Source: Lachnospiraceae bacterium (lineage in GTDB: Bacteria > Bacillota > Clostridia > Lachnospirales > Lachnospiraceae). From it: 64,000 nucleotides of DNA. The notes under the pieces are model-generated. The model was not told the origin of the DNA. It searched no databases and saw only the letters and a list, made by a program, of their open reading frames with translations. Each line of letters opens with the position of its first letter. Position 1 is the first letter of the stretch. A program made the translations under genes and the position numbers. Where the stretch lies: assembly GCA_017521195.1 (NCBI GenBank), contig JAFXGP010000060.1, positions 1 to 64,000 of the forward strand. Direction: 5' to 3'. Positions 4,274 through 35,971 of the stretch are shown in pieces.

Positions 4274-5431
4274 ATGATAAACGAACAAGTGAAGAAGCAG
4301 CAAAGGGAGGAAATTATCTCTGGGAAAGAAAATGAAAGAAAAGAAGAAAAAGAAGGAATGAGCAATTCTAAAAGGAAAGATTCCTTTGGTAAGATGATTT
4401 TTGGAAACAATGAATTATGTGCTCAGTTTTTAAGAGAATATACTAATATAGAACAGCTAAAAAATGTGCAATCGGCTGATATAGAAGATATATCCAATCG
4501 ATTTACACATATGTTTGCGGAAGAAAGAGAAGCAGATGTTATTAAGAAAATCAATATAGAAGCAGACGATATGACGTTTTATTTAATTTCGCTGATTGAA
4601 CATAAATCCAATGTGGATTATAATGTTGTTATGCAGATACTTCGTTATATGGTATTCATATGGGAAGATTACGAGAAAAAAGAAAATGGCAGAACAAAAG
4701 GAATATCCAAGAAAAAGCAATTCAAGTATCCGCCAATTCTTCCGATCATATATTATGATGGAATTGTCAATTGGACATCATCGCTTCATTTGAAGGAAAG
4801 AATATATTTAAGTGAAATTTTTGGGAAATATGTTCCGGATTTTGAATGTATGCTGATTCCGCTTCATAAATACAGTAATCAGGAAATTATGAAGAATAAA
4901 GATGAGTTGGCGGTGCTATTACTCTTAGATAAGCTGAGTGATGTATCTGATTTTAAAAAGTTAACAGAGGAGATTCCGCCGGAGTATTTTGCAAAGGTAA
5001 CAGAAAATACGTCACAGAATGTCATGGACATTATGATAAGTGTGATGAGAGTGTTGCTCTCTAAATTGAAACTTTCTGAAGAAGAAATCGATAGTTTCAT
5101 GGAGCGGATAAAAGAGGAGGACAACGTGGGAGGATGGTTTGAGCATTTTAAGGAAATAGACTTGCCGGCAGAGAGAATAAAAATGCGGAAAGAAGTACGG
5201 GAAGAAGTGCGGGAAGAAGTGCGGGAAGAAGTACGGGAAGAAGTGCGGGAAGAAGTACGGGAAGAAGTGCGGGAAGAAGTACGGGAAGAAGTACGGGAAG
5301 AAAGTGTAAAAATACTCATTGAGGCTATGAAAGATTTGGATGTATCTCGTCATTTTGCGATAGATAAATTAAAAGAGAAATATTCTCTGACGCCAGAACA
5401 GGCAGAAGAAAAATTAAGTAAATATTGGTAA
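4274..5431 (+). CDS. Rpn-family nuclease (PD-(D/E)XK, YhgA-like) with REEV tandem repeats
   Basis: A 385-residue protein of the Rpn (recombination-promoting nuclease, formerly putative transposase) family. The nuclease core lies at residues 35-135: an N-terminal segment (DSFGKMIFGN...FLREYTN), a conserved Asp in READV (Asp88), and the catalytic E-x-K in LIEHKS (Glu109, Lys111), followed by an RYM...WEDY helix. This family nicks DNA and promotes RecA-independent recombination. Residues 305-344 are ten REEV-type repeats encoded by a 12-nt minisatellite, predicted to be one long charged helix. A short C-terminal domain (EKYSLTPEQAEEKL) follows. ATG 4274 has GGAAAGG upstream; ATG 4358 is a possible inner start. 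It is a monocistronic unit with its own terminator. The target is unknown. Confidence 0.8.
   Translation: MINEQVKKQQREEIISGKENERKEEKEGMSNSKRKDSFGKMIFGNNELCAQFLREYTNIEQLKNVQSADIEDISNRFTHMFAEEREADVIKKINIEADDMTFYLISLIEHKSNVDYNVVMQILRYMVFIWEDYEKKENGRTKGISKKKQFKYPPILPIIYYDGIVNWTSSLHLKERIYLSEIFGKYVPDFECMLIPLHKYSNQEIMKNKDELAVLLLLDKLSDVSDFKKLTEEIPPEYFAKVTENTSQNVMDIMISVMRVLLSKLKLSEEEIDSFMERIKEEDNVGGWFEHFKEIDLPAERIKMRKEVREEVREEVREEVREEVREEVREEVREEVREEVREESVKILIEAMKDLDVSRHFAIDKLKEKYSLTPEQAEEKLSKYW
5186..5305 (+). repeat. 12-nt in-frame minisatellite (10 units)
   Basis: The unit CGGGAAGAAGTR is repeated head to tail. The first unit (encoding RKEV) and last unit (REES) are degenerate and the eight central units are almost identical. 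The only wobble is A/G in the Val codon. It lies inside the Rpn-family gene, and the unit length keeps frame whatever the copy number. Confidence 0.95.
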
Positions 5432-10417: not shown

Positions 10418-12634
10418 ATGGAATATAAATTGCATTTCAAAAAAACAATTAAAAAGTGGGATGAAGCGGTACCATTGGGAAATGGCAGAATGGGTGCTTT
10501 GATTTGGGGAGAACCCGGAGAACTCAGATTTAGTCTTGACAGAACAGATATCTGGGATAAAAGCCAGCCATTGTATACAGATAGGGAAGAGTTTACCTAT
10601 GCCCATATGGTAAGTCTTGCAAAGACGGGAAACACAGATGCCATAAGGGAGCTTTTTGATGCTCCCTATAACCATCCTACACCAACAAAGTTACCGGCAG
10701 GTAAATTAATTTTGCATTTTGCCAAAGGCAGTAATGTAGAATCCATTCTGGATTTAAATACGGCAGAAGTGAAACTGATTGTTTCGGAGAAAGCAGAGGC
10801 AGGAAGTATTGCAGATGCATCTAAGCAGCAAGCAATAGAGATTAGAAGTATTTGTCATGCGGTTACCGGCAGTGGTATGGCTTTAGTAAATGTCGGTTGT
10901 CGGGATTTTCAAATAGAGTTGGTAAATCCTGAATTTGGTCTGGATGATGAACAGGAAGAAATTCACTATAATCCGGAAGAAAGGGAAATCTCTCAAGGTA
11001 GTTTGAAGAAATTGCATTATCCCCGGGCAATCAGACAGGAGGTAATGGGAAATCCTAAGTTTATCTGGTTTAAACAGCAGATTAAAGATGAATACTTCGC
11101 GGTCATAGCCGGAATAAAGGAAGAGAGAGAGCAGACTTTGATTGGCTACAGGGTGGTTCGTTCTACAGACGGAGAAGAACCATTGGAAGAAGCCCAAAAG
11201 CAACTACAGGCGGAATTGGAATTGGGATATGAGAAGAATTTAATAAGCCACGAAAAATGGTGGAAAGAATTCTGGGATAAGAGCAGTATTAACCTGCCTG
11301 ATAAGTTTTTTGAAAAACAATGGTATCTGACTAATTATTTGTTTGCCTCCTGTTCCAGAAAAGGGGAATACCCAATGCCTCTTCAGGGAGTATGGACGGC
11401 AGATGATGGGAATCTTCCTCCGTGGAAAGGGGATTACCACAATGATTTAAATACCCAGTTGAGTTACTCACATTTTTACAAAGCAAATCATCTGGAAGAA
11501 GGCGAATGCTTTATTGATTATTTGTGGAATATGAGAGAAGCGGCAGCGGATTTTGCAAAGAAATTCTTTGGAACGGAAGGGATTTGTCTGCCGGGTGTCA
11601 TGTCTATTGATGGAAAACCATTAGGTGGTTGGCCGATGTATTCTTTGTCACCAACTCAGCAGATTTGGCTTTGTCAGTCCTTTGAGCAGTATTACCGTTA
11701 TACTTTGGATGAGACCTTCTTAAGAGAAAAAGCATGGGTTTATCTGGAAGAAACGGCAAAGTGCATGCTTGGTATTTTAGAAGAAAGAAACGGATTTTAT
11801 TACTTACCGGTTTCCAGTTCTCCTGAGATTCATGATGATGAAAGGGAATCTTGGGTGACACCTAACAGTAATTATGATTTGGCACTTTTACGTTATCTTT
11901 TTAAAACTCTGACGGAGTTTGCTAAGATTTTGGAAAATGGCAGGGAAGAGTACTGGAGAACGGAGTATGAAAAGTTACCGTCGTTGGCAGTAAATAAAGA
12001 AAATGTGTTGATGTTATCTCCGGACGAAAGCCTGAGGGAATCTCATCGCCATTTATCCAATGCCATGGCGATTTGCCCATTAAGATTACTTTCTTATCCG
12101 GAAGATAAAGAAGTCATCGATGCCACAGTTCTGGATTATGAAAGATGGGGAAGTGGTATGTGGGTAGGATTTTCCTTTGCGTGGATGTCCCACTTGTATT
12201 CAATACAAAAGAACGGGGAAGGTGCTTTTGAACAATTAAGAATCTTTTGGGAGAGTTTTTGTTCGCCAAACGGATTTCATTTAAATGGGGATTATAAAAA
12301 GAAAGGATACAGTACTTTTCATTATCGTCCGTTTACGTTGGAATCCAATATGTATGCTGCAGATGCTTTACAGGAGATGCTGCTGCAAACCAAGGGAAAT
12401 GTAATTGAAGTATTTCCGGCAATTCCGGAGCATTGGCAGGGAGAAGAAATCAGCTTCAGAAGTCTGCGTGGAGAAACGGGAATTCTGGTATCTGCAAAGC
12501 GGATACCTCATCATGGATGTGAGATTTGTCTGACATCACCTGTTACACAAAGTGTTTTAGTAAAAACAGAACAGATACAAATGGAGATTGAGTTGGAAGC
12601 TATTGAACCTAAAAATGTATTTATTCCGTTTTAA
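10418..12634 (+). CDS. GH95-like glycoside hydrolase (cytosolic)
   Basis: A 738-residue enzyme without a signal peptide, so it acts on imported sugar. The N-terminal beta domain begins with the family hallmark AVPLGNGRMGALIWG. The (alpha/alpha)6 catalytic core has PLQGVW...GDYHNDLNTQLSY and later ESHRHLSNAMAICP, both matching GH95/clan GH-L landmarks, and a beta-rich C-terminal domain follows. GH95 enzymes release L-fucose or L-galactose. At the place where characterised fucosidases read H-T-N-x-N this protein has H-N-D-L-N, so one catalytic-site Asn appears to be Asp and the specificity may differ. It lies in the operon with a GH112 phosphorylase, suggesting stepwise breakdown of a decorated galactoside. 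Confidence 0.72.
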   Translation: MEYKLHFKKTIKKWDEAVPLGNGRMGALIWGEPGELRFSLDRTDIWDKSQPLYTDREEFTYAHMVSLAKTGNTDAIRELFDAPYNHPTPTKLPAGKLILHFAKGSNVESILDLNTAEVKLIVSEKAEAGSIADASKQQAIEIRSICHAVTGSGMALVNVGCRDFQIELVNPEFGLDDEQEEIHYNPEEREISQGSLKKLHYPRAIRQEVMGNPKFIWFKQQIKDEYFAVIAGIKEEREQTLIGYRVVRSTDGEEPLEEAQKQLQAELELGYEKNLISHEKWWKEFWDKSSINLPDKFFEKQWYLTNYLFASCSRKGEYPMPLQGVWTADDGNLPPWKGDYHNDLNTQLSYSHFYKANHLEEGECFIDYLWNMREAAADFAKKFFGTEGICLPGVMSIDGKPLGGWPMYSLSPTQQIWLCQSFEQYYRYTLDETFLREKAWVYLEETAKCMLGILEERNGFYYLPVSSSPEIHDDERESWVTPNSNYDLALLRYLFKTLTEFAKILENGREEYWRTEYEKLPSLAVNKENVLMLSPDESLRESHRHLSNAMAICPLRLLSYPEDKEVIDATVLDYERWGSGMWVGFSFAWMSHLYSIQKNGEGAFEQLRIFWESFCSPNGFHLNGDYKKKGYSTFHYRPFTLESNMYAADALQEMLLQTKGNVIEVFPAIPEHWQGEEISFRSLRGETGILVSAKRIPHHGCEICLTSPVTQSVLVKTEQIQMEIELEAIEPKNVFIPF

Positions 12635-17240: not shown

Positions 17241-18128
17241 ATGATCGCAAGTATAGTAGGAAATTATTTAAAAGATGTTGGATTACTTACGGAAGAACAG
17301 TTGCATGATTTATTGGCTGAACACAGAAAAGTACGTGCAAAATTAGGTATTATTGCTGTGGCGGAAGGACTGATGACTCAGGAAGAAGCAGAAAGAGTAA
17401 ACCGTTTGCAGGCGATTATGGACATGCGTTTTGGTGATATCGCAGTGGAGGAAGGTTATCTTACTGAAGGTCAGGTGGAAACTTTACTGAAAAAACAGGG
17501 AAATGCATATTTGGCATTTGCACAGGCTTTGGAAAACCAGCAGTTAATGTTGATTGAACAGTTGGAACAGCTTTTAATTGATTTCCAGTATGATAACAAT
17601 TTTACAGCTTCCGATATGGAAATATTAAAAAGTGATGATATAGACCAGATTTTGACACTCTTTTTACCTTTAGAGGGAGAAAAATACGAGAAAATAGCCA
17701 GTATAGCCGTAAGAACCATTATGCGTTTGATTGATTTGGATGTATGCGTGGGAAGAGGTTATTTGGCAAAACGAAGAGAGATACAAAATGGGGCACTTCA
17801 GGAAGTAGAAGGAAAAATGGGATTTACCACAGGTATGGTAGGTCGTGGAAATGCTTTATGTAATTTGGCTTCTACCTTTGGTCAGGAGATTTTTAACACA
17901 ATTGATGAAGATGCTCTGGATGCGGTTGGTGAAGTAGTAAACTGTATTAATGGTTTGGTGGCCACCGGCATGGAATATTTGGACAACACATTAGAACTTT
18001 GTCCGCCAGAGTATTCTGTAAATGCGGAAGCGGTTTCGGCAGAGGAAATGTTGATTTTACCACTTCGTGTTTTAGGTAAGAAAATTGATTTTGTAATTAC
18101 CATTGGTAACAAGTTAGAATTAAAATAG
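17241..18128 (+). CDS. CheX-like phosphatase with N-terminal MshEN-like repeats
   Basis: A 295-residue cytosolic protein. The C-terminal half carries the CheC/CheX/FliY phosphatase signature D-xxx-E-xx-N-xxx-G, seen as DAVGEVVNCING (Asp227, Glu231, Asn234, Gly238); in CheX the Glu and Asn remove phosphate from CheY. The N-terminal 115 residues contain repeats of the form LG-IAV-EG-(L/Y)-T-EQ-(V/L)--L---Q, which resemble the MshEN/GspE-N module, some members of which bind c-di-GMP. The cheY-like gene follows after 14 bases, making the phosphatase-substrate pair likely. A good -10 (TATAAT 17139-17144) lies upstream and AGGAGG precedes the ATG. No flagellar genes are nearby. Confidence 0.72.
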   Translation: MIASIVGNYLKDVGLLTEEQLHDLLAEHRKVRAKLGIIAVAEGLMTQEEAERVNRLQAIMDMRFGDIAVEEGYLTEGQVETLLKKQGNAYLAFAQALENQQLMLIEQLEQLLIDFQYDNNFTASDMEILKSDDIDQILTLFLPLEGEKYEKIASIAVRTIMRLIDLDVCVGRGYLAKRREIQNGALQEVEGKMGFTTGMVGRGNALCNLASTFGQEIFNTIDEDALDAVGEVVNCINGLVATGMEYLDNTLELCPPEYSVNAEAVSAEEMLILPLRVLGKKIDFVITIGNKLELK

Positions 18129-18142
18129 GTGAGGAAAATTAT

Positions 18143-18502
18143 ATGGCAAACATATTAATTGTAGATGATTCCAGAACTTCCAGAAAGATTTTAAGAAGAA
18201 TTTTGGAAGAAGCAGGACATACTGTTTTGGGAGAAGCAGTAAATGGTGAAGACGGATATTTAAAGTATCAGGAATTGAAGCCTGATGTAGTAACTTTAGA
18301 TATTACCATGCCTAAAATGGATGGTTTGGAAGCACTTCGTTTGATTAAAAAATATGATGCAGATGCTACAGCAATTATGATTACTGCAGCAGGACAGAAA
18401 GAGAAAATGATTTTGGCAATAAAAAGCGGTGCGGCTGACTTTATTGCAAAACCATATGAACCTAATGATGTACTTTGGGTAATTGACAAGTGCATGAAAT
18501 AA
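18143..18502 (+). CDS. CheY-like single-domain response regulator
   Basis: A 119-residue stand-alone receiver. The acidic pair is VDDS (Asp8, Asp9), the phosphoacceptor is Asp53 in VTLDITMPKMDG, the conserved Thr is in MITAA, and the Lys is in FIAKPY. No output domain exists, so it must act by protein contact. It is encoded between a CheX-like phosphatase and a LacI-type repressor with gaps of only 14 and 15 bases. The partner kinase is not adjacent; the CheA-like protein encoded at 29 kb in this window is a candidate, by inference only. Confidence 0.88.
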   Translation: MANILIVDDSRTSRKILRRILEEAGHTVLGEAVNGEDGYLKYQELKPDVVTLDITMPKMDGLEALRLIKKYDADATAIMITAAGQKEKMILAIKSGAADFIAKPYEPNDVLWVIDKCMK

Positions 18503-25140: not shown

Positions 25141-25983
25141 ATGAGTTATAAAATTGTAGTAGATAGTTGTTGTGAATTACCTGAAGAATATAAAAAAGAT
25201 GCCAGATTCCAAATAATTCCTTTAGGATTGCAGGTGGGAGATTGGCACATTATGGATGATGAGAATTTTAATCAGGCAGAATTTTTGCAAAAGGTGGCAA
25301 CAACGCCGGATTGTCCAAAATCTTCTTGTCCATCGCCTGAAAAATTCATGGAAAGCTATAATGATGATGCTGACCGTGTATATGGTGTAACATTAACCGC
25401 TAAATTAAGCGGAAGTTATAATAGTGCTGTGTTAGGAGCCAGTCTTTACGAAGAGACATACGGAGAAAAGAATATTCATGTGTTTGATTCAAAATCAGCT
25501 TCCTGTGCCGAGTCTTTGATTGCATTAAAGGTAATGGAATTAGAAGAAATGGGAAAATACACTTTTGAGGAAATCGTGAAGAAAATGGAAGAGTACCGTG
25601 ACAAAATGGAAACATATTTTGTGTTGGATAACTTGGATTTCCTGAAGAAAAACGGAAGATTGACGGGGCTAAAAGCCCTGGCAGCAACAACTTTGAATAT
25701 CAAACCTGTATTAAAAGCGATTGATGGTGAGATTGCACAGGCAGGTCAGGCTGTTGGTGTAAAAAAAGCATTGGCGAAACTGGCAGATATGATTGTTGAA
25801 AAGATGGACAAAAAAGATCATGATACCATGGTAATTACTCATTGTAATAATGTCCAGAGGGCAGAAACTGTCAGAGATTTAATTTTGAAAAAAACAGATT
25901 TAATTAAGAAAGTCATCATTATGGATACGGCCGGTGTTGCGAGTTTGTATGCAGCAGATGGTGGAGTGATTGTAGCAATATAA
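25141..25983 (+). CDS. DegV-family fatty-acid-binding protein (FakB-like)
   Basis: A 280-residue cytosolic protein. The N-terminal DegV signature is IVVDSCCELPEEY, followed by FQIIPLGLQVGD, the ligand-site GVTLTAKLSGSYNSA and VFDSKSASCAESL, and the C-terminal lobe YFVLDNLDFLKKNGRLTG. DegV/FakB proteins hold a fatty acid and present it to the kinase FakA. The length is normal. SD GGAGG. It has its own terminator and lies immediately upstream of an operon whose last gene ends in a second DegV domain, so a shared lipid ligand is possible (inference). Confidence 0.92.
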   Translation: MSYKIVVDSCCELPEEYKKDARFQIIPLGLQVGDWHIMDDENFNQAEFLQKVATTPDCPKSSCPSPEKFMESYNDDADRVYGVTLTAKLSGSYNSAVLGASLYEETYGEKNIHVFDSKSASCAESLIALKVMELEEMGKYTFEEIVKKMEEYRDKMETYFVLDNLDFLKKNGRLTGLKALAATTLNIKPVLKAIDGEIAQAGQAVGVKKALAKLADMIVEKMDKKDHDTMVITHCNNVQRAETVRDLILKKTDLIKKVIIMDTAGVASLYAADGGVIVAI

Positions 25984-26139: not shown

Positions 26140-27603
26140 ATGCAGTGGACAGAATTGTTTCAGTTTACCATAGAGAATACATCAGAAATGGTGATTGTTT
26201 ATGAAACAGGGGGACAAATATTGTATGCGAATCCCGGGGCGGAAGTATTGTTAAAATATAAAGAGGATTTGAATACTGTAAATATAACAGAAATTTTTCC
26301 TATGGAAGAATCCCGGATATGGGAACCGGGGAATCAAAAAACTACCGAACAAGAATGGATGGCATATAGAGGAAACAGAACCTGTTTTCCGGTAAAAGGC
26401 AAAATGTTTGCTTTTCCTTTAAATGATGGAGAAGAAAGGGAAGTTTATTTGTGCATTGCCAGAGATGTTACCATGGAAAAATTTCTGGAAAAGAAAGTAG
26501 AACAGGTAGAGGAAGAGGCAAAAGAGGCGGCGAAAGTCAAATCTGAATTCGTGGCAAATGTAACCCATGAACTTCGTACTCCTGTCAATGGAATTCTGGG
26601 AAACATCAGGGAATTGATGAGTTTGGAAACGGAAGTTCAGAGTCAGAAATATTTGCAGATGATAGAACGCGGTTGCCGGGATATGAATAATCTGATTAAT
26701 AATATTCTGGATTTTTCTAAGTTAGAAGCCGGAAAATTTACTTTGGAGAAACGCAAATTTAATTTCCTTAATATGATGGAATATATTAAAGGAAACCATA
26801 ACAAACGCATGATTGAAAAGGGACTGGAGTTTACAGTAACAGTTTCGCAGGATATTCCGGAATATGTGATAGGAGATGAGTTACGACTTATGCAGATTTT
26901 AAACAATCTGCTGTCCAACGGATATAAATTTACCACTGTAGGAGGTGTCCATCTGGAGGTAATCAAAACTGCAGGAACCGAAAAAAGGGCGGAATTGTTT
27001 TTCATGGTATCGGATACAGGGATTGGGATTTCCAAAGAAAAACAGGATAAGTTATTCCAAAGTTTTTCACAGGTAGATATGTCTATTTCCAGAAAATATG
27101 GAGGTACCGGTCTGGGGTTAAATATTTGTAAGCAATTAGTTGAACTTATGGGAGGAACTATTCAGGTAGAAAGTGAATATGGACAGGGGACCCATTTTTC
27201 ATTCTATATATGGTTGGATTTGCCGGAAGAAGACAAAACGGAAATCTCTGTAAAAGCTAAGGAAAATATAGAACGGACGGAACAAGATTTATTGGACAAG
27301 TTAAAACAGGTAACTATAGACAGGATGACAGAAAATGTTTGGCAATACGGAGAGACTGAGAATCGGGAAGAAGTCCGGAAGAAATTAGGAAAATTAATGC
27401 TATGCATTTTAATGGAAAATTGGGAAAGAGCAGAAATGTTAGCAGAGAGCGTAAAACAATTATTAGAAACGGCTCCGAAAGAAATAAAGAATACAGCATT
27501 CCGGATGAAAATGGCAATACAAAAGGAAGATGTACAGAAAGCAACAGAATGCCATGAGCATTTGGTGGCGATGATGGAGGATAAAAATGGATGCGTTGAA
27601 TAA
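26140..27603 (+). CDS. Cytosolic PAS-domain sensor histidine kinase
   Basis: A 487-residue kinase without membrane segments. A PAS domain occupies residues 1-110 (VIVYETGGQILYANPGAEVL). A coiled-coil linker leads to HisKA with His143 in FVANVTHELRTPVNGILG. The ATPase domain has N-box NNLLSNGYKFT, G1 SDTGIGI and G2 GGTGLGLNI. The last 120 residues are helical with no known domain. It is the first gene of a six-gene operon and overlaps the next gene by 17 bases. A 110-base leader precedes it, with a TATAAT-like -10 (26043-26048) and small hairpins. AGGAGG is the SD. It probably feeds phosphate to the receivers that follow. Confidence 0.9.
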   Translation: MQWTELFQFTIENTSEMVIVYETGGQILYANPGAEVLLKYKEDLNTVNITEIFPMEESRIWEPGNQKTTEQEWMAYRGNRTCFPVKGKMFAFPLNDGEEREVYLCIARDVTMEKFLEKKVEQVEEEAKEAAKVKSEFVANVTHELRTPVNGILGNIRELMSLETEVQSQKYLQMIERGCRDMNNLINNILDFSKLEAGKFTLEKRKFNFLNMMEYIKGNHNKRMIEKGLEFTVTVSQDIPEYVIGDELRLMQILNNLLSNGYKFTTVGGVHLEVIKTAGTEKRAELFFMVSDTGIGISKEKQDKLFQSFSQVDMSISRKYGGTGLGLNICKQLVELMGGTIQVESEYGQGTHFSFYIWLDLPEEDKTEISVKAKENIERTEQDLLDKLKQVTIDRMTENVWQYGETENREEVRKKLGKLMLCILMENWERAEMLAESVKQLLETAPKEIKNTAFRMKMAIQKEDVQKATECHEHLVAMMEDKNGCVE

Positions 27604-28654
27604 AAATGTTCCCCGTGTTCTGATTGTAGATGATGTGGAAACAAACCGCTTCATTTTAAGAGATGTGATTTTGGATATGAATAATTATCCGATTCTGGCA
27701 GAAAACGGTTTACAGGCATTAAAAATTGTACAACATATTAAACCGCAGTTGATTATTTTGGATATTGCAATGCCGGAAATGGATGGGTTTGAAGTGTGCC
27801 GTAAATTAAAAGAGGATCCTCTTACAAGAGATATCCCTATTATATTCATTTCAGCATACGATGAGCCGGGAGATATTGTAAAAGGATTTGAAATCGGTTG
27901 TGAAGATTATATTGTGAAGCCATTTATTCCGGAGGTGGTAAAGGCCCGTGTTGGTGCTCATCTAAAACTTAATGATGTAAGTACCAAGATGAAAGAGGTA
28001 AACAGGAAGCTGCAAATGTCTATACAGGAACAGAGAAAATTGGTAGATACGGAACGAAGACGAGTGTTGTATGCCCTGCTCCGTGTGGCAAGAGAAAATG
28101 CCTGTTACGATAAATTATATATGGAGAGATTACAATGTAATTGCCGTATTTTGGCAGAGGCCATGCAGTTATCTACTCGTTTCGGACATCTGATATCGGA
28201 CCATTTTGTGGATATTATAGAATTGGCAACACCTTTGTGTGATTTGGGAAATCTGGCAATTCATACCAGTATTTTACAAAAACAGGAACCCTTAAATGAG
28301 GATGAGAGAAAAATAATACAGGGGCATACCAACATCGGAGCCAGAATTCTTCAAGATGTAGAGGCCTTAGGAGATGAAAACGGATTTATACATATGGCAA
28401 GAGAAATTGCCCATTACCATCATGAAAACTGGGATGGCAGCGGATATCCTGAGGGAATAAAGGAAGAACAGATACCGCTTGCGGCACAGATTGTGGCAGT
28501 AGTTAGCGGTTATTGTGCTTTGACGGAAAAGCGAATTTACCGTGATGCGTACAGTAGGGAGGAAGCCATTTCCCTGATGGAAAAAGAATGTGGGGAAAAA
28601 TATAATCCGGAGATTTTCTGGATTTTGAAGAAGATTGTAAAACAGATGCAGTAA
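27587..28654 (+). CDS. Response regulator with degenerate HD-GYP domain
   Basis: A 355-residue protein. The receiver (residues 8-125) is intact: VDD, phosphoacceptor Asp59 in IILDIAMPEMDG, and Lys in YIVKPF. A coiled coil (about 130-160) joins it to an HD-GYP domain that keeps HHENWDGSGYP (278-288) and GHTNIG, but the HD dyad reads CDLGN (Cys218-Asp219) instead of HDIGK. The late metal-site Asp of the usual DxxDA segment is also missing (VSGYCAL). It is therefore unlikely to hydrolyse c-di-GMP and may be a binding or protein-contact output. SD GGAGG lies inside the preceding gene. Confidence 0.85.
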   Translation: MDALNKNVPRVLIVDDVETNRFILRDVILDMNNYPILAENGLQALKIVQHIKPQLIILDIAMPEMDGFEVCRKLKEDPLTRDIPIIFISAYDEPGDIVKGFEIGCEDYIVKPFIPEVVKARVGAHLKLNDVSTKMKEVNRKLQMSIQEQRKLVDTERRRVLYALLRVARENACYDKLYMERLQCNCRILAEAMQLSTRFGHLISDHFVDIIELATPLCDLGNLAIHTSILQKQEPLNEDERKIIQGHTNIGARILQDVEALGDENGFIHMAREIAHYHHENWDGSGYPEGIKEEQIPLAAQIVAVVSGYCALTEKRIYRDAYSREEAISLMEKECGEKYNPEIFWILKKIVKQMQ

Positions 28655-28672: not shown

Positions 28673-29065
28673 ATGAGAATTCTTTTGGCAGAAGACGATT
28701 ACGTAACAAGAAAATTTATGATAGGGTTTTTATCAAAATACGGAGAATGTGATGTTACGGTGGACGGTATGGAAGCCGTAGATGCATTTATGATGACATT
28801 GGAGGATGAAGAACCCTACGATTTAGTATGTTTGGACATTATGATGCCTGTAATGGATGGATATCAGGCACTTATGGGAATCCGTAATCTGGAAAAAGAA
28901 CGGGGGATTTTGGAAAAAGACGGGGTTAAGATTATTATGACGACAGCCTTAAATGATGAGCAGAATGTTAAGATGGCATTTGATCTGGGGTGTACGGTGT
29001 ATTCCGGAAAACCTATTGACCAGGATAAATTCGAACAGGTATTAGTAAAATTCGGGTTGATATAG
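28673..29065 (+). CDS. Single-domain receiver (CheY-like)
   Basis: A 130-residue stand-alone receiver. Acidic pocket AEDD, phosphoacceptor Asp55 in LVCLDIMMPVMDG, Thr in IMTTAL and Lys in YSGKPID. It has an extra loop of about ten residues before beta-4 (NLEKERGILEKDG). AGAAGGAGAAGG precedes the ATG. It sits between the HD-GYP-like regulator and the CheA-like kinase, fitting a shuttle in a phosphorelay. Confidence 0.9.
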   Translation: MRILLAEDDYVTRKFMIGFLSKYGECDVTVDGMEAVDAFMMTLEDEEPYDLVCLDIMMPVMDGYQALMGIRNLEKERGILEKDGVKIIMTTALNDEQNVKMAFDLGCTVYSGKPIDQDKFEQVLVKFGLI

Positions 29066-29083: not shown

Positions 29084-30787
29084 ATGACAGATAAGATTAA
29101 CGCACAGGGAATGTTAGATACATATCTGCTCGAATGTGAGCAACTGTTAGAACAGATTCAAACGATAGTTTTACAGGAAAAGGATAAGACTTATTTTGAA
29201 AAAGAAAGCATACATGAAATCTTCCGAGGAATCCATACCATAAAAGGAATATCTGCCATGATGATGTATGATGAAGTGACGAAGATATCCCATAAATTAG
29301 AAGATGTACTTTATTGCTTGAGAGAGTCAGAAACTAAGCAGCCTCCGGCAGCGGAATTGGCAGAACAGATTTTGAAAGTGACGGATTTTATCAGCAATGA
29401 AATGACTAAGATTGGCAGTGGTGAAAGTGCAGACGGTAAGGCAACAGAACATTTAATACAGTTGAATTCATTTCTGGATAAAATCCGGGATGATGACCAA
29501 ATGGAAAAGGCAGAAGTAAAAGAAAATATGTATGAGGAACCGCAGCAATTCTATATTCCGCCTAAAGTAAGCGGTACCAGTTGTTTTTATAAGATTCATC
29601 TTACTTTTAGGCCCGGACTGGATTTAGCTAATGTACATGCTTATAAAATTGTATATGCATTGAAAGAAATTGCTGAGGACATGATTTATGAGCCGGAAGA
29701 TATAATTTCTGATGATAATACGGCAGAGGAAATTCTGAAGAAAGGTTTTGATATTTTATTACAGACACAGAAAAAAGAAGAGGATTTACATAAAATATTA
29801 AAGACAGGATATGCCTTAACAGGAGTGGAAATTATATCCGGTACTGCCCGTGAATATTGCAAAGGATTTACACCGGAGGAAGAAAAAACAAAAGAAGCAA
29901 TGCCGGATATAAATATCGGAAGAACTTATGTACCGGGTGACTTCGTTATTGAATCCAAAGAGCCGGGCAAAGGGAAAAAACTTGCAAAAGACAGAATGGA
30001 AAGAACCTCCTATATTCGTGTAGATGTGAAAAAAATGGACATGCTCCTAAGATTGATGGAAGATGTGAAGAATTCTCAAAACGCACTTTTAGGAAATAAA
30101 GATCTGAGAGTGGAAGGGTTGAATTTGGAGAATTTTGATATGGCAGCAGAGCAGATGTTAAAAGCATCTGCAAAATTACAAAGTGCGATCATGGCAATGC
30201 GTATGATGTCTTTGAGCAATACATTTCAAAGAATGAACCGTATTGTATTCGAGACTGCCCGTCAGTTGGGAAAAGAAATTGACTTTGAAATGGTAGGAGA
30301 AGAAGTTCAGCTGGATAAAAATGTGGTGGAACATCTTTTGGCACCATTAATGCATATTGTGAGAAATTCAGTAGATCACGGAATTGAAATGCCGCAGGAG
30401 AGAGAAGCAATCGGCAAGGAAAAACGGGGAAAGATTATTCTTTCTGCAAAGTTGGAACCGAGCAGAGTGTGTATTAGTGTGGAAGATAACGGCCGGGGGC
30501 TGAGTCGGGATAAAATCTTAGAAAAAGCAAGAAAACAAGGCCTGATAAGTCAGTGGGAAAAAGAGGAAGATTATACCGAAGAAGAGGTATATCGTCTGAT
30601 TACACTTCCGGGATTTTCTACCAAAGAAGAGATTACCGAATATTCCGGACGGGGAGTAGGAATGGATGTGGTAATTTCCAATTTGCAGGAAATTAACGGA
30701 AGCCTGGAAATTGAAAGTGAAGAAGGTGTGGGAAGTAAAATGACAATGTTCGTTCCCACCACCATAATAAAAAATATGGAAGTGTGA
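29084..30787 (+). CDS. CheA-like histidine kinase lacking the CheW-like domain
   Basis: A 567-residue kinase with CheA architecture. An N-terminal HPt domain carries the phospho-His in IFRGIHTIKGISAMM (His51). A P2-like region lies at about 165-270. The dimerisation helices contain AIMAMRMMSL, and the P4 ATPase domain includes MHIVRNSVDHGIE, VEDNGRGL, GFSTKEEITEYSGRGVGMDVV and GVGSKMTMFVP. It stops right after P4, so the P5 domain that binds CheW and receptors is absent. It cannot join a normal chemoreceptor array and more likely works inside this operon's phosphorelay. It starts 18 bases after the receiver gene. Confidence 0.88.
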   Translation: MTDKINAQGMLDTYLLECEQLLEQIQTIVLQEKDKTYFEKESIHEIFRGIHTIKGISAMMMYDEVTKISHKLEDVLYCLRESETKQPPAAELAEQILKVTDFISNEMTKIGSGESADGKATEHLIQLNSFLDKIRDDDQMEKAEVKENMYEEPQQFYIPPKVSGTSCFYKIHLTFRPGLDLANVHAYKIVYALKEIAEDMIYEPEDIISDDNTAEEILKKGFDILLQTQKKEEDLHKILKTGYALTGVEIISGTAREYCKGFTPEEEKTKEAMPDINIGRTYVPGDFVIESKEPGKGKKLAKDRMERTSYIRVDVKKMDMLLRLMEDVKNSQNALLGNKDLRVEGLNLENFDMAAEQMLKASAKLQSAIMAMRMMSLSNTFQRMNRIVFETARQLGKEIDFEMVGEEVQLDKNVVEHLLAPLMHIVRNSVDHGIEMPQEREAIGKEKRGKIILSAKLEPSRVCISVEDNGRGLSRDKILEKARKQGLISQWEKEEDYTEEEVYRLITLPGFSTKEEITEYSGRGVGMDVVISNLQEINGSLEIESEEGVGSKMTMFVPTTIIKNMEV

Positions 30788-30795
30788 GTTAATAC

Positions 30796-33246
30796 ATGGA
30801 AAAGATAACCTATTGGGGAAGTCCTACAAAAATGGAAATATTTCTGTTGGTGATGTATACCATTTATACAGGTGGTATTATCATCAGCGGAGCCAGACCC
30901 AGTTTGGAAAACTGGACGGATTTTATGCTGATTGCTTTTTTGGCAAGCAGTTGGTTTTTGCGTATATGTAACTATAAAAACTACAGATTCCGTGCTACCT
31001 ATACATCGGTTATGATGCAGCTGAGTCTGATTTTGTATGCCTGCCATGAGCAGGAACTGCGACATGCATTGCCGGTATTTATTGTGTTTGTGGTTATGGT
31101 AGGTTTGTATGGAATTGCAGAAAATATCTATATCACGTTAGTTACAACCATAATTGTATTCGGATATCATATTCTGATAATCCGCACGATTCCATTGGGG
31201 ACATTAAGAGATGTAGTTAGTTTAATCCAGAGACTTACCAATGTTTTGTTTGTAGAATTTCTGGTTTTTGTATGGACCAAACGTAATTATGAAGATAATA
31301 ACAAACTGGTTGGAATGATTGAAGAACTGGAAAAGGTAGAAAGCAGCAAGGATGATTTTGTGGCAAATGTAAGTCATGAAATCCGCACACCGATTAATAC
31401 TATTTGCGGCATGAGTGAGATTCTTTTAAATGAAGAACTTCCGTTGAGTGTGCAGGAAAAGGTGATGGACATCCAGAGGGCAGGCAGGAATCTGATGGGA
31501 GTAGTAAGTGATATTTTGGACTTTTCCGAGTTGCAGTCTGAAGAGATTAAAATGGAAGAGGAATCTTACCATTTAAGTTCTACCATAAATGATGTGGTAA
31601 ATATGGCCCTTGCATATAAAAATGATAAAAAGATTGATTTAATTGTAGAATGTGATCCGGAGATTCCGAGTGGGCTGTTGGGAGATGAAAAGAAGATACG
31701 AAGAGTCATCATTAAGCTGATGAATAATGCTATCAAATTTACGGAATCAGGATGTGTTACTTTAAGTGTAGGCTATCGGAAAGAGGAATACGGAATCAAT
31801 TTATCTTTTGCCATAAGAGATACCGGAATCGGGATGCGGGAAGAAAGTCTGGAAAAATCATTCACCACCTTTAGTCAGGTAGATTCCAGCCGGAAACGTC
31901 AGGCAGATGGATTAGGGTTGGGACTTGCTATTTCCCAAGCTTTGGTACAGAAAATGGGAGGTACCATTACGGTAAAAAGTCAATGGGGAAAAGGAACTCT
32001 GATCAGAGTAGTGGTACCTCAAAAAGTGGTAGATGAAACACCTATAGGAGTTTCTCACAATCGCAGATATACAGCAGAAATAGGAGCTCAGGTAGAACAG
32101 AAACAAAAAGAAGAACTTATTCCGAAGAAAAAAATTGAATCCGATAATGTCCATGTCCTGATTGTAGATGATAACAGTATGAATCTGCGTGTGGCGGAAG
32201 AAATGCTGACAACTTATGGAATTAAAGTGACGAAAGCATACAGCGGAGAAGAAGCTTTGGATAAGATTACTTCCATGGATTACGATTTTGTTTTTATGGA
32301 TCATATGATGCCGCAAATGGATGGAGTGGAGACATTACATCATATCCGTAAAAAGGTAGGCACCTATTATCAGAATGTACCGATTATTGCAGTTACCGCC
32401 AATGCAGTGGCAGGAAATCGTGAAAAATTATTAAAAGAAGGTTTTGATGATTTTCTGGAAAAACCTATTGAGCGTTCCGTATTGGAGAGAGTTCTCAGGA
32501 GAACACTTCCGGAGGAGAAATTTGCTACGGTTATAAATGTGGGAGCAATAGATTATAAACCTTTAACGGAAAGCAATTCCGGATGGCTACGGATAGTTCA
32601 GGAATGTGGTTTAGATGTAAAGAAAGGTATTTTATACTGTAACGGAAAGGATGCCTACTATAAAATTCTGAAGGGGTATTGTCTGGAGGGGGACAAAACG
32701 GAAAGACAACTGGAAGAATTATATAGAAAACAAGATTGGAAAAACTATACTATTGCGGTACATGGACTGAAAAGTGCCATGCACAGTGTTGGTGCAACAA
32801 AAGTATCCGAAATTGCCAAATTATTGGAAATGGCAGGAAAAAAACAGGATATTGATTATATCTTAGAACATCACGATCAGTTGATGGTGGAATTTAGATA
32901 TTTATTTACTAAACTTCAAATACAGATATTTAAAGATGAGGAAGAAAAACCAGGCATACTTAAAGGTGAAATATCGCCAAATGAAAATGTCTTGGAAAAA
33001 GAAGAAAAGCTTTTGATGGCTGCTGAGTTTGAAGAATTATTGGCAGAAATGGAAAATGCCGTATTTTCTCTGGACAGTGACTTGCTGCTTAAGATTACAG
33101 GTGAACTCAAAGGTTGTAATTATGCAGGAAAATCAATGGAGGAAGTTATAACGAAAGCAGAGAGAAAAATTGAAATGTCGGATTTCTTTTCTGCAGTGGA
33201 AATGATTACACGTTGGAAAGAGAATGCAGAGATTGGAGATACTTGA
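30796..33246 (+). CDS. Membrane hybrid kinase: TM-HisKA-ATPase-REC-HPt
   Basis: An 816-residue tripartite kinase. Five or six hydrophobic segments fill residues 12-165. HisKA has His194 (FVANVSHEIRTPINTICGM), and the ATPase has MNNAIKFT, RDTGIGM and the slightly altered G2 ADGLGLGLAI. A receiver with Asp502 (FVFMDHMMPQMDG) and an HPt with His656 (IAVHGLKSAMHSVG) follow, then a 120-residue helical tail. All three phosphorelay sites are present, so it can pass phosphate His-Asp-His. The small membrane sensor lacks a large external domain, suggesting a membrane or intramembrane cue. It starts eight bases after the CheA-like gene. Confidence 0.9.
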   Translation: MEKITYWGSPTKMEIFLLVMYTIYTGGIIISGARPSLENWTDFMLIAFLASSWFLRICNYKNYRFRATYTSVMMQLSLILYACHEQELRHALPVFIVFVVMVGLYGIAENIYITLVTTIIVFGYHILIIRTIPLGTLRDVVSLIQRLTNVLFVEFLVFVWTKRNYEDNNKLVGMIEELEKVESSKDDFVANVSHEIRTPINTICGMSEILLNEELPLSVQEKVMDIQRAGRNLMGVVSDILDFSELQSEEIKMEEESYHLSSTINDVVNMALAYKNDKKIDLIVECDPEIPSGLLGDEKKIRRVIIKLMNNAIKFTESGCVTLSVGYRKEEYGINLSFAIRDTGIGMREESLEKSFTTFSQVDSSRKRQADGLGLGLAISQALVQKMGGTITVKSQWGKGTLIRVVVPQKVVDETPIGVSHNRRYTAEIGAQVEQKQKEELIPKKKIESDNVHVLIVDDNSMNLRVAEEMLTTYGIKVTKAYSGEEALDKITSMDYDFVFMDHMMPQMDGVETLHHIRKKVGTYYQNVPIIAVTANAVAGNREKLLKEGFDDFLEKPIERSVLERVLRRTLPEEKFATVINVGAIDYKPLTESNSGWLRIVQECGLDVKKGILYCNGKDAYYKILKGYCLEGDKTERQLEELYRKQDWKNYTIAVHGLKSAMHSVGATKVSEIAKLLEMAGKKQDIDYILEHHDQLMVEFRYLFTKLQIQIFKDEEEKPGILKGEISPNENVLEKEEKLLMAAEFEELLAEMENAVFSLDSDLLLKITGELKGCNYAGKSMEEVITKAERKIEMSDFFSAVEMITRWKENAEIGDT

Positions 33247-33248
33247 AA

Positions 33249-35927
33249 ATGTGGCAGAAATTGTTGCAATTAATTAACAGTACAGAATACGATTTGAAAG
33301 AGAGAATGCTCCGTTCCATTATTCTGGTGGGAGAGTTGGCTTGTATTTTTGCCAGTGTGGAAATCTTTTTAGTTATGGATGTCAATAATGTAATGCTGAC
33401 AATCATTATGTTAATGATTCTTTTCATGATTGGTATTTTCTTTGTAACCTTTAAATATAAACGATATGAATTAGCATCTACCCTTTTAGGAGGGGTCATC
33501 ATATTTTTGGTAATGCCACCTATGTTTATATTAAGCGGAGGAATTGAAGGCGGGGCTTCTGTCTGGCTGGGGCTGGGTGTATTATACATATTTGTTATGT
33601 TTAGCGGATTGAAAATGTATCTTTTTTTGGCAGCCTGTACCATCACATATGCAGGGACCTTTTATTTTGCTTATGCATATCCACAGTACATTGTAGAGAT
33701 GCCGAGTGTGGAGATTGCACATTTTGATGCATGGTTTTCTGTTTTGGTAGTGGGAACCATGGGAGGAGTTATTTTAAAAGCTCACATGAACGTTTTTGAA
33801 AAGGAGCATGAACTGAATATACAGCAAAAGGAAGAGCTTAAGAATAATCAAAACTCCAGAAATGTATTTTTTGCCAATATGAGTCATGAAATCAGAACAC
33901 CGATTAATACGATTATAGGATTAAATGAAGTCATTTTAAGAGAGAGTCAGGATCAGAAGATAAAAGAATATGCCAGGGATATTCAGATTGCCGGCAACAT
34001 GCTTCTAAATCAGGTAAATGATATTCTGGATTTTTCACAAATGGAAATGGAAAAGATGCATATTGTACCTGCCAAATACAGAACCGGAGAACTTTTGAGA
34101 GATTTGGTGGATTTAATCCGTCTCAGGGTGGAAAGAAAGAAACTGGAATTATGTCTGGATATTGATCCTAATATACCTTCTGTTTTATGGGGGGATGAAA
34201 AAAGATTAAAACAGATATTCCTAAATCTGTTGGATAATGCAGTAAAATACACTCAGGAAGGTTCCATAACCCTAGGGATGAAAGCAGAAGAGTATGAAAA
34301 AGGAAAAATATATCTGAAGGCTACAGTGGCAGATACGGGAATCGGAATCCGTAATGAAGATTTGGAACATATTTATGATTGTTTTGCCAGAGCAGACGAA
34401 AGTAAAAACCGTAGGATTATGGGAACCGGTTTGGGGCTTTCCATTACCAAGGAACTGGTAACCTTAATGGGCGGCGACATAAATGTGGACAGTATTTACA
34501 CCAAGGGAACTATATTTACAATTATCATACCTCAGGATGTGGTGGAAAATTCCCCTATCGGCAAGGTGGATTTTATGCAAATGTCAGCAGATGTATCTGA
34601 AAAGTATAAGCCCGTGTTTGAAGCTCCGGAAGCAAGAATTCTGGTGGTAGATGATAATCCTATGAATTTAATGGTGACTGCCAAGTTGTTGGAGGGAACC
34701 GGAGCGCAGGTGGACACAGCCACCGGTGGAACAGAATGTCTGAAAATGACGAAGAAAAAGTTCTACCATGTAATTTTATTGGATTATATGATGCCGGATA
34801 TGGATGGACAGCAGACCATGAAAGAAATCCGAACTCAGGAAAACGGAAGATGCCGGGATGCTTCTATAATAGCTCTTACCGGGAATGTTTTGTCCGGAGC
34901 CAGAAAAATGTACTACGAGCAGGGATTTGACGGTTATGTGGAAAAACCTGTAGAGGGAAAACTTTTAGAAAAGGAAATTTTGGGAGTTCTGCCGCCGGAA
35001 ATTGTAAAATATTATTCTGAAGAAAGTACATCTTTAAAAACAGAAAGCCGTATTTTAGAGATTATGAGAAATAAGCGTAAGAAGATTCTGATTACTTCCG
35101 ATTGTGCCTGTGATCTTTCCCAGGAATTGTTGGAAGAATATGGCATTGAGATTATGCATTTATATGTTAAGACCCCTTATGGCCGTTTCAAAGATGTGGT
35201 AGAAATTGATTCTGATAATCTGACCCAGTTTATATCCAAGGACAGAAGCCAGGCTGTTCCGGATAGTGTAACTATAGAAGAGTATGAGGAATTCTTTGGT
35301 AAGGTTTTGACCATGGCAGAACAGGTAATTCACTTTGCAGTTTCTTCCCGTTGCGGAGAAAGTTATAATGTGGCTGTAAAAGCGGCCAAAGGATTTGACC
35401 ATGTACGTGTAATTGATTCAGGACAAGTTTCCGGAGGACAGGGATTGTTGGTTGTACAGGCAGCCAAAATGGCAAAAGAAGGTTATCGTGTAGAACAGAT
35501 ATGTGAGGAGATAGAGAAGATAAAAGCCAATGTACGGATATCTTTTTTAATGCCTTCAGCATATATTTTCGCCCAGAGAGGACGTGCAGCAGCTATCACT
35601 GCTCAAGTTTGTGAAAAATTGCAATTGCATCCTATGGGAGAAGTGAGACAAAATAACGCAGTCTTATCCATGTTGTGGGGAGGTACTCTGGAGAGTACCA
35701 GAATGAAAGCAATCAGATGGAGTCTCAGACATAAACGGAGGGTGAATAAAAGTGTTCTCTATATCATTCATGCAGGCTGCAGTGTAAAAGAATTGGAAAG
35801 TGTCAAAAATGAAGTATTCCGGCATGTGAAGTTTGAACATGTAGAGGTGTTGAAAGCTTCCTTTACTACCGCATGTAATGCGGGAGTGGGAACGTTGGGA
35901 TTGGCCTTCTTCGAAAATAAACGATAA
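33249..35927 (+). CDS. Membrane hybrid kinase fused to a DegV domain: TM-HisKA-ATPase-REC-DegV
   Basis: An 892-residue protein. About six membrane segments (residues 20-180) lead to HisKA with His213 (FFANMSHEIRTPINTIIG). The ATPase domain has LDNAVKYT, ADTGIGI and GTGLGLSI, and the receiver has Asp512 (LLDYMMPDMDG). The last 280 residues (from KILITSDCACDLSQELLEEY, about 612) read as a DegV domain: an N-terminal D-x-x-C-D-L signature, IMHLYVKTPYG, FAVSSRCGESYN, VIDSGQVSGGQGL and a closing FTTACNAGVGTLGLAFF. DegV domains bind fatty acids, so this kinase may sense or be gated by a lipid. I start at ATG 33249; a TTG at 33213 overlaps the preceding gene. It is the last gene of the operon. Confidence 0.87.
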   Translation: MWQKLLQLINSTEYDLKERMLRSIILVGELACIFASVEIFLVMDVNNVMLTIIMLMILFMIGIFFVTFKYKRYELASTLLGGVIIFLVMPPMFILSGGIEGGASVWLGLGVLYIFVMFSGLKMYLFLAACTITYAGTFYFAYAYPQYIVEMPSVEIAHFDAWFSVLVVGTMGGVILKAHMNVFEKEHELNIQQKEELKNNQNSRNVFFANMSHEIRTPINTIIGLNEVILRESQDQKIKEYARDIQIAGNMLLNQVNDILDFSQMEMEKMHIVPAKYRTGELLRDLVDLIRLRVERKKLELCLDIDPNIPSVLWGDEKRLKQIFLNLLDNAVKYTQEGSITLGMKAEEYEKGKIYLKATVADTGIGIRNEDLEHIYDCFARADESKNRRIMGTGLGLSITKELVTLMGGDINVDSIYTKGTIFTIIIPQDVVENSPIGKVDFMQMSADVSEKYKPVFEAPEARILVVDDNPMNLMVTAKLLEGTGAQVDTATGGTECLKMTKKKFYHVILLDYMMPDMDGQQTMKEIRTQENGRCRDASIIALTGNVLSGARKMYYEQGFDGYVEKPVEGKLLEKEILGVLPPEIVKYYSEESTSLKTESRILEIMRNKRKKILITSDCACDLSQELLEEYGIEIMHLYVKTPYGRFKDVVEIDSDNLTQFISKDRSQAVPDSVTIEEYEEFFGKVLTMAEQVIHFAVSSRCGESYNVAVKAAKGFDHVRVIDSGQVSGGQGLLVVQAAKMAKEGYRVEQICEEIEKIKANVRISFLMPSAYIFAQRGRAAAITAQVCEKLQLHPMGEVRQNNAVLSMLWGGTLESTRMKAIRWSLRHKRRVNKSVLYIIHAGCSVKELESVKNEVFRHVKFEHVEVLKASFTTACNAGVGTLGLAFFENKR

Positions 35928-35933
35928 TGTAAA

Positions 35934-35965
35934 AACAGTCTGCTGATTTAGGTCAGCAGACTGTT
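35934..35965 (-). terminator. Shared terminator of the convergent operons
   Basis: A perfect 13-bp stem AACAGTCTGCTGA/TCAGCAGACTGTT with a six-base loop. Read on the minus strand it ends in TTTTTA and read on the plus strand in TTTGCTTATT, so it can stop transcription from both sides. Confidence 0.85.
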
Positions 35966-35971
35966 TGCTTA

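Follow-up and report, generated by a model that had tools for sequence, protein, structure and literature searches.

DegV domains are known as fatty-acid carriers, and the locus analyzed here raises the question of what such a domain does at the receiver end of a histidine kinase (HK). The gene lies in a 64,000-nucleotide stretch of DNA from a Lachnospiraceae bacterium (GenBank assembly GCA_017521195.1, contig JAFXGP010000060.1, positions 1 to 64,000; hereafter the window), and a preliminary description had suggested that its product takes part either in lipid-gated signaling or in a phosphorylation-controlled delivery of lipids. We favor, with a probability of about 0.5, a reading in which this HK-receiver (REC)-DegV protein is the regulatory half of a two-kinase phosphorelay, its DegV domain binding a cytosolic ligand and gating the passage of phosphate to an Hpt domain that the pair shares.

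A hybrid histidine kinase with a complete DegV domain

The gene and its parts are as follows, with Pfam scores in brackets.

33249..35927, + strand: hybrid histidine kinase with a C-terminal DegV domain, 892 amino acids; open reading frame (ORF) from the ATG at 33249 to a stop ending at 35927
33249..33818, + strand: putative membrane region of six helices, residues 1-190 (as seen in the secondary structure that the full-length model gives)
33858..34046, + strand: HisKA, residues 204-266, with His213 (60.8 bits)
34191..34535, + strand: HATPase_c, residues 315-429 (94 bits)
34638..34976, + strand: Response_reg (REC), residues 464-576, with Asp512 and Lys566 (76.8 bits)
35082..35915, + strand: DegV, residues 612-889 (PF02645, 121.8 bits, E = 4.5e-35, profile positions 1-279 of 280)

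All four Pfam domains score above their curated cut-offs (27 bits for PF02645), and the NCBIfam model for DegV, TIGR00762, is matched at 126.2 bits against a cut-off of 99.7. The C-terminal region, which had been proposed as a DegV domain from its DCACDL start and AGVGTLG end, both of them present, is therefore a member of that family by its nearly whole profile match and by the FakB-type two-domain fold that modeling predicts. The start, stop, and length of the ORF also agree with the preliminary description, as do the placements of His213, the ATPase domain, and Asp512, and the membrane helices find a counterpart in helices predicted ahead of HisKA at residues 16-42, 47-68, 73-95, 103-117, 120-143, and from 154 onward. 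Everything expected of a hybrid kinase (the phospho-accepting His, the N and G boxes, and the Asp and Lys of the receiver) is present and nearly invariant among 192 relatives: His213 was kept in 190, N326, N330, D362, G364, G392, and G396 of the HATPase in 190 each, and D512 and K566 in all 192. A further receiver residue, Cys535 (34851-34853) within a QENGxC motif, is kept in 177 of them.

FakB residues are largely replaced in the fused DegV domains

For comparison with FakB, residues are given in FakB2 numbering, and we took T62, S95, H270, R173, and R205 of FakB1 to be FakB2 T61, S93, H266, R170, and R202, judging from motif position. Counts were made in three sets of fused domains (n = 121, n = 192, and n = 96 rows taken from loci) and in stand-alone controls (n = 34), which are 34 frames from 33 loci, namely the genome's own four and the best match per genome in 29 related genomes. 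Passages on FakB1 give its carboxylate network as T62, S95, S171, and H270 (PMC8892158), and those on residue roles assign carboxylate holding to such positions and docking on FakA and the membrane to R202 (PMC9136124, PMC8892158).

In the window DegV, T61, S93, R202, and H266 are replaced by P671, G703, G811, and N877, and R170 is kept as R779, so that neither the FakB carboxylate network (P671, G703, N877) nor the docking arginine (G811) was found in it. The family follows the same trend: Thr or Ser at position 61 occurs in 34/34 stand-alone vs 16/121 fused domains, S93 in 34/34 vs 6/121, R202 in 31/34 vs 5/121, and H266 in 32/34 vs 0/121, with 0/192 and 0/96 in the other two fused sets. R170, the arginine of the FakA reaction, is present in 76/121, 98/192, and 36/96. 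The domain had been called a complete, fatty-acid-binding DegV; the fold is indeed complete, but the residues with which FakB holds a fatty acid are missing.

Other changes lie in the roof insert and the lid helix. Position 33 of the roof insert, mostly hydrophobic in stand-alone DegVs, is Thr in 121/121 fused domains, and the lid-helix consensus L162, L165, and G168 is lost. Several residues are conserved, among them T642, R646, D649, and E652, each found in 121/121 fused domains and in 190, 175, 191, and 192 of the 192 relatives, respectively. D618, D723, G778, P795, and G879, conserved across the DegV family, are also retained.

A stand-alone DegV gene (25141-25983, + strand) lies 156 bases ahead of the kinase operon. 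It has V for R202 and Y for H266 and keeps S61, S93, and R170; among the 80 loci compared, none showed such a gene ahead of the kinase pair.

The fusion forms a single clade centered on Lachnospiraceae

A search with residues 605-892 returned 211 homologues at E <= 1e-3, and 116 of the best 120 listed carry all four Pfam domains. Because the fusion recurs in these homologues and in many genomes, chance or an assembly artifact was ruled out. Scanning species genomes yielded 96 loci, of which 80 were kept, mostly labeled Lachnospiraceae or genera such as Roseburia. Six carry the labels Treponema, Muribaculaceae, Gastranaerophilales, or Oscillospiraceae (L078, L082, L075, L035, L090, L092) and may represent transfer or mis-binned contigs.

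Within the bacterial family of the window, 45 of 299 sampled genera have a DegV match in a stop-free open frame of at least 700 amino acids, as counted by frame length in one genome per genus with up to seven candidates scored in each, domain make-up being checked in some. Among 299 genomes sampled across the phylum, again with up to seven candidates scored per genome, no DegV match listed at E <= 1e-30 lay in a frame of at least 600 amino acids outside that family. A single-domain scan of viral contigs, which reaches close relatives, gave none.

In a tree that also contains 43 stand-alone DegVs, the fused domains group together in a clade of their own (96 rows, among which the window is counted twice; support 0.967). 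The deeper branches that bear on the order in which FakB residues were lost have support of 0.6-0.86. Judged from these alignments and trees, the fusion is a conserved family of single origin, tied to a partner kinase.

The partner kinase usually carries the Hpt domain

Immediately upstream of the DegV kinase is the partner gene, whose stop codon is 2 bases from the ATG of the DegV kinase in the window.

30796..33246, + strand: second hybrid kinase, HisKA-HATPase-REC-Hpt, 816 amino acids (Pfam; pairing conserved)
32677..32850, + strand: Hpt domain of the partner, residues 628-685, motif VHGLKS (Pfam)

By a strict test the partner is directly upstream in 69 of the 72 loci with >2.5 kb of upstream sequence, and the three misses have it too, with overlapping starts in L019 and L092 and a broken frame in L086. 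Domain profiles were then applied to 97 fusion rows (the window, 80 loci, and 16 loci picked from the 299-genus family sample), which gave 86 adjacent pairs. Seventy-four of these combine HK-REC-Hpt with HK-REC-DegV, nine combine HK-REC with HK-REC-DegV-Hpt, and none has two Hpt domains, so that 83 of 86 pairs have exactly one. The others are L082, where domain profiles found no Hpt in the partner, the broken L086, and L157; at least one pair (L155 and L088) is possibly counted twice. Eleven rows are unpaired, through short flanks (L021, L041, L062, L065, L078, L094, L147), a split partner (L056), or decay (L074), or, in L153 and L154, with no adjacent partner.

Pfam found no Hpt match on the DegV kinase's own chain in the window and confirmed Hpt in 4/4 of the four-part HK-REC-DegV-Hpt proteins examined, where DegV lies between REC and Hpt. 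In L157, DegV is N-terminal, ahead of the membrane helices of an HK-REC protein whose frame runs off the contig, and a free Hpt-like protein just under the Pfam cut-off is nearby; in L153, a REC-Hpt protein is encoded just upstream. From these three arrangements it follows that Hpt and DegV swap places while the clusters keep similar parts. Shared ancestry of the two kinases' membrane regions was also considered and is not supported (hhalign probability 8.9).

A proposed gated phosphorelay and its alternatives

Because the DegV kinase has a receiver and no Hpt, and the pair has about one Hpt, a shared relay is the simplest reading. It builds on the domain assignments, the intact active-site positions of kinase and receiver, the grouping in a single clade, the loss of FakB residues, the conserved pairing, and the roughly one Hpt per pair; from these we infer that the two kinases act as one unit, that Asp512 donates to the partner Hpt, and that DegV is an input, not an output, with a small molecule as its ligand. 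One signal would be read by the membrane region and another by the DegV domain, and a ligand in the two-lobed DegV cleft would alter how REC is presented to Hpt. Phosphate would then travel from His213 to Asp512, on to the partner Hpt, and from there to the CheY-like, CheA-linked, or HD-type regulators of the same cluster, changing motility or cyclic di-GMP (c-di-GMP) signaling. The domain is likely a built-in regulatory switch for a neighboring kinase pair that often lies beside chemotaxis-type genes.

Several observations weigh against this reading. Choosing the best-scoring match per related genome as a control favors canonical DegVs, and the loss of FakB residues is, as far as the alignments tell, less complete in the locus-derived set (n = 96), which keeps T/S61 in 44 rows, S93 in 24, R202 in 1, and H266 in none. 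Loss of H266 is not specific to the fusion, since two of the four stand-alone DegVs in this genome have Q and Y there; E652 is kept in just 5/11 members of the longest group. The conservation pattern would fit a sensor and a scaffold alike, and a fold match by itself would not establish the ligand. In the full-length model, domain contacts are unsettled because its predicted TM-score (pTM) is 0.44 and the linker 591-608 has low confidence. The four-part proteins share a 15-member clade with types that have Hpt on the partner (support 0.89), so that Hpt may have swapped sides independently just once or a few times. Finally, the system is dispensable, since a sister genome of the same genus (L007 / L074, G004:C63) has a decayed DegV kinase, whose receiver and DegV regions contain broken frames, beside the same DUF1294 and argG genes, and five other genomes of the genus (72-89% complete) have no fused match among the matches listed.

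DegV might instead still carry an acyl ligand, either a long-chain fatty acid or a modified one, in the tunnel known from FakB, through a new head-group site, so that the kinase reads lipid supply. The whole FakB fold predicted for the domain, the Ser retained at positions 61 and 93 in some divergent members, and the absence of His266 from two stand-alone DegVs of the same genome would all accommodate such a lipid-gated sensor. We nevertheless consider it unlikely, given that His266 is gone from every fused sequence counted, R202 persists in only 5/121 and 1/96, position 33 is uniformly Thr, and the lid-helix residues are lost. Another reading is lipid delivery, in which phosphorylation of the receiver would make DegV hand a fatty acid to FakA. 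The genome does have one FakA-type Dak2 gene, and R170, needed for the FakA reaction, survives in the window and in 76/121 fused domains, but the docking R202 and the carboxylate residues (with the roles described in passages of PMC9136124 and PMC8892158) are missing from the window DegV and from most of the family, His266 occurs in no fused sequence counted, and the recurring neighbors are signaling genes. An output of this kind is very improbable; what stands of the earlier interpretation is its general theme of a DegV domain in signaling, in line with a conserved family and a partner kinase.

That DegV holds no small molecule and serves only as a tether between the kinase and its partner, Hpt, or a chemosensory array is a doubtful alternative. 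It would agree with the dismantled carboxylate site, with the strict pairing to one partner gene, and with the precedent of FakA_C, an EDD-fold domain that serves protein docking according to a passage in PMC9136124. Against it, D618, D723, G778, P795, and G879 of the DegV family are kept, and the DegV of L157 has moved to the N-terminus yet is still on the kinase, a relocation not readily reconciled with a fixed contact surface. A redox or metal site controlling the kinase, formed by DegV cysteines 619, 788, 844, and 876, and often 621, is suggested by their frequency (117, 113, 113, 116, and 101 of 121, respectively, for 619, 788, 844, 876, and 621). We hold such a sensor to be quite improbable, since many divergent members have no Cys there (619 is present in 163/192 and 876 in 150/192), the long group has Ser or Thr at 619 in 11/11, and several of these cysteines also occur in stand-alone DegVs. 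A co-evolving metal site at 619 and 876 (Fisher p = 8e-12 in 192 sequences) was rejected, as that value ignores relatedness and a kinase-region tree of 190 sequences shows that the changes hardly coincide: of 12 changes at 619 and 14 at 844, 4 are shared, and 619 and 876 have 1 in common.

Neighboring genes and possible outputs

The DegV kinase and its partner follow four genes of a likely operon and precede a terminator-like hairpin.

26140..27603, + strand: PAS histidine kinase, first gene of the likely operon (same gene upstream in 4/61 loci)
27587..28654, + strand: REC-HD regulator with the degenerate HD motif CDLGN (Pfam)
28673..29065, + strand: CheY-like single receiver (Pfam)
29084..30787, + strand: CheA-like kinase, Hpt-P2-HATPase, no CheW domain found (Pfam)
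35933..35966, + strand: terminator-like hairpin of 15 pairs, just 3' of the DegV kinase (consensus scan, which found 10 sites where 8.2 are expected)

Neighbors were counted in the 61 loci with >7.5 kb of upstream sequence, with identities assigned by Pfam on examples. Upstream of the DegV kinase we found CheA in 25, CheB in 25, CheY in 28, CheW in 23, and a methyl-accepting chemotaxis protein (MCP) in 26, and 21 of the 61 loci have the order CheB-CheY-CheA-CheW-MCP-HK-REC-Hpt-DegV kinase. A REC-HD match is upstream in 30/61 loci, full length in 21 and a short receiver-only match in 9; the full-length proteins have a CDxGN-like motif in 14 cases, HDxGK in 6, and another motif in 1. Nine divergent loci encode REC-HD proteins with an intact HDxGK, and in eight of these loci the gene precedes the kinase pair. 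Among the window cluster proteins scanned, none had a reported DNA-binding domain.

CheA-like proteins of ~570 amino acids with no CheW match are encoded in the window (29084-30787) and in L083 (3644-5371), a locus that presumably continues into flagellar genes, as recognized from their sequence; CheA in other clusters has ~713-730 amino acids. Elsewhere in the genome there are 6 flagellin-type, 10 MCP, and 5 CheW-domain matches. In L035, a protein with an MCP signaling domain and PilZ (10867-12489) directly follows the DegV kinase. The window also encodes a CheX-like protein (17241-18502, + strand), just under the Pfam cut-off and above that of NF053729 for MshE-related c-di-GMP binding, followed by a CheY-like receiver. 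A 12-base tandem repeat of 9.8 copies (5186-5302) inside the ORF 4274-5431 gives a REEV repeat in the protein.

Significance

Taken together, the data point to one lineage that kept the DegV fold, altered its contacts with the fatty acid and FakA, and tied the domain to a kinase pair. Tentatively, a fatty-acid carrier of gut bacteria may have been made into a signaling domain, in a system where two kinases form one unit with one shared Hpt and a rebuilt DegV cleft senses some cytosolic molecule and gates the relay to a chemosensory array or to an HD-type c-di-GMP regulator. If DegV is indeed a sensor, it would be a new input domain for two-component systems. The presence of about one Hpt per pair (83/86) also offers a natural experiment in the sharing of one phosphorelay by two hybrid kinases, and apparent isolates among the carriers (Agathobacter ruminis JK623, Roseburia hominis An869, Lachnospiraceae NK4A179) make the system testable.

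Comparison with known systems

We found no report of a DegV-histidine kinase fusion in the open-licence PubMed Central literature, in agreement with the preliminary description, which knew of no characterized system of this kind. The window DegV resembles FakB1 and FakB2 of S. aureus (PF02645) in its whole-domain fold, its profile match, and several family glycines and aspartates; unlike them, it is fused to a kinase and has T61, S93, R202, and H266 replaced, the last of these in all 121 fused domains. It is also related in its EDD fold to FakA_C (6w6b), where a passage describes that fold as used for protein docking (PMC9136124), but FakA_C is a short EDD fold without the FakB inserts, and the window DegV is not of that short type.

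Passages on RpfC describe an HK-REC-HPt protein that spans the membrane with five helices, ends in its HPt, binds a fatty-acid signal near the membrane, and works with the HD-GYP phosphodiesterase RpfG (PMC5391125). The window cluster similarly pairs an HK-REC-Hpt kinase with a REC-HD regulator. It differs in that the RpfC ligand is sensed near the membrane and those passages mention no DegV domain for RpfC, and in that the window regulator has CDLGN in place of the HDxGK of an intact HD-GYP domain, which nine relatives keep.

The tripartite HK-REC-Hpt kinases BarA and TorS share the HK-REC core and are the best NCBIfam matches, although the scores are far below the cut-offs (297.5 vs 890 and 291.5 vs 676.5). 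Where they have Hpt, the window kinase has DegV, and its Hpt is found on the neighboring protein (30796-33246), whereas the four-part HK-REC-DegV-Hpt relatives do carry an Hpt on the same chain.
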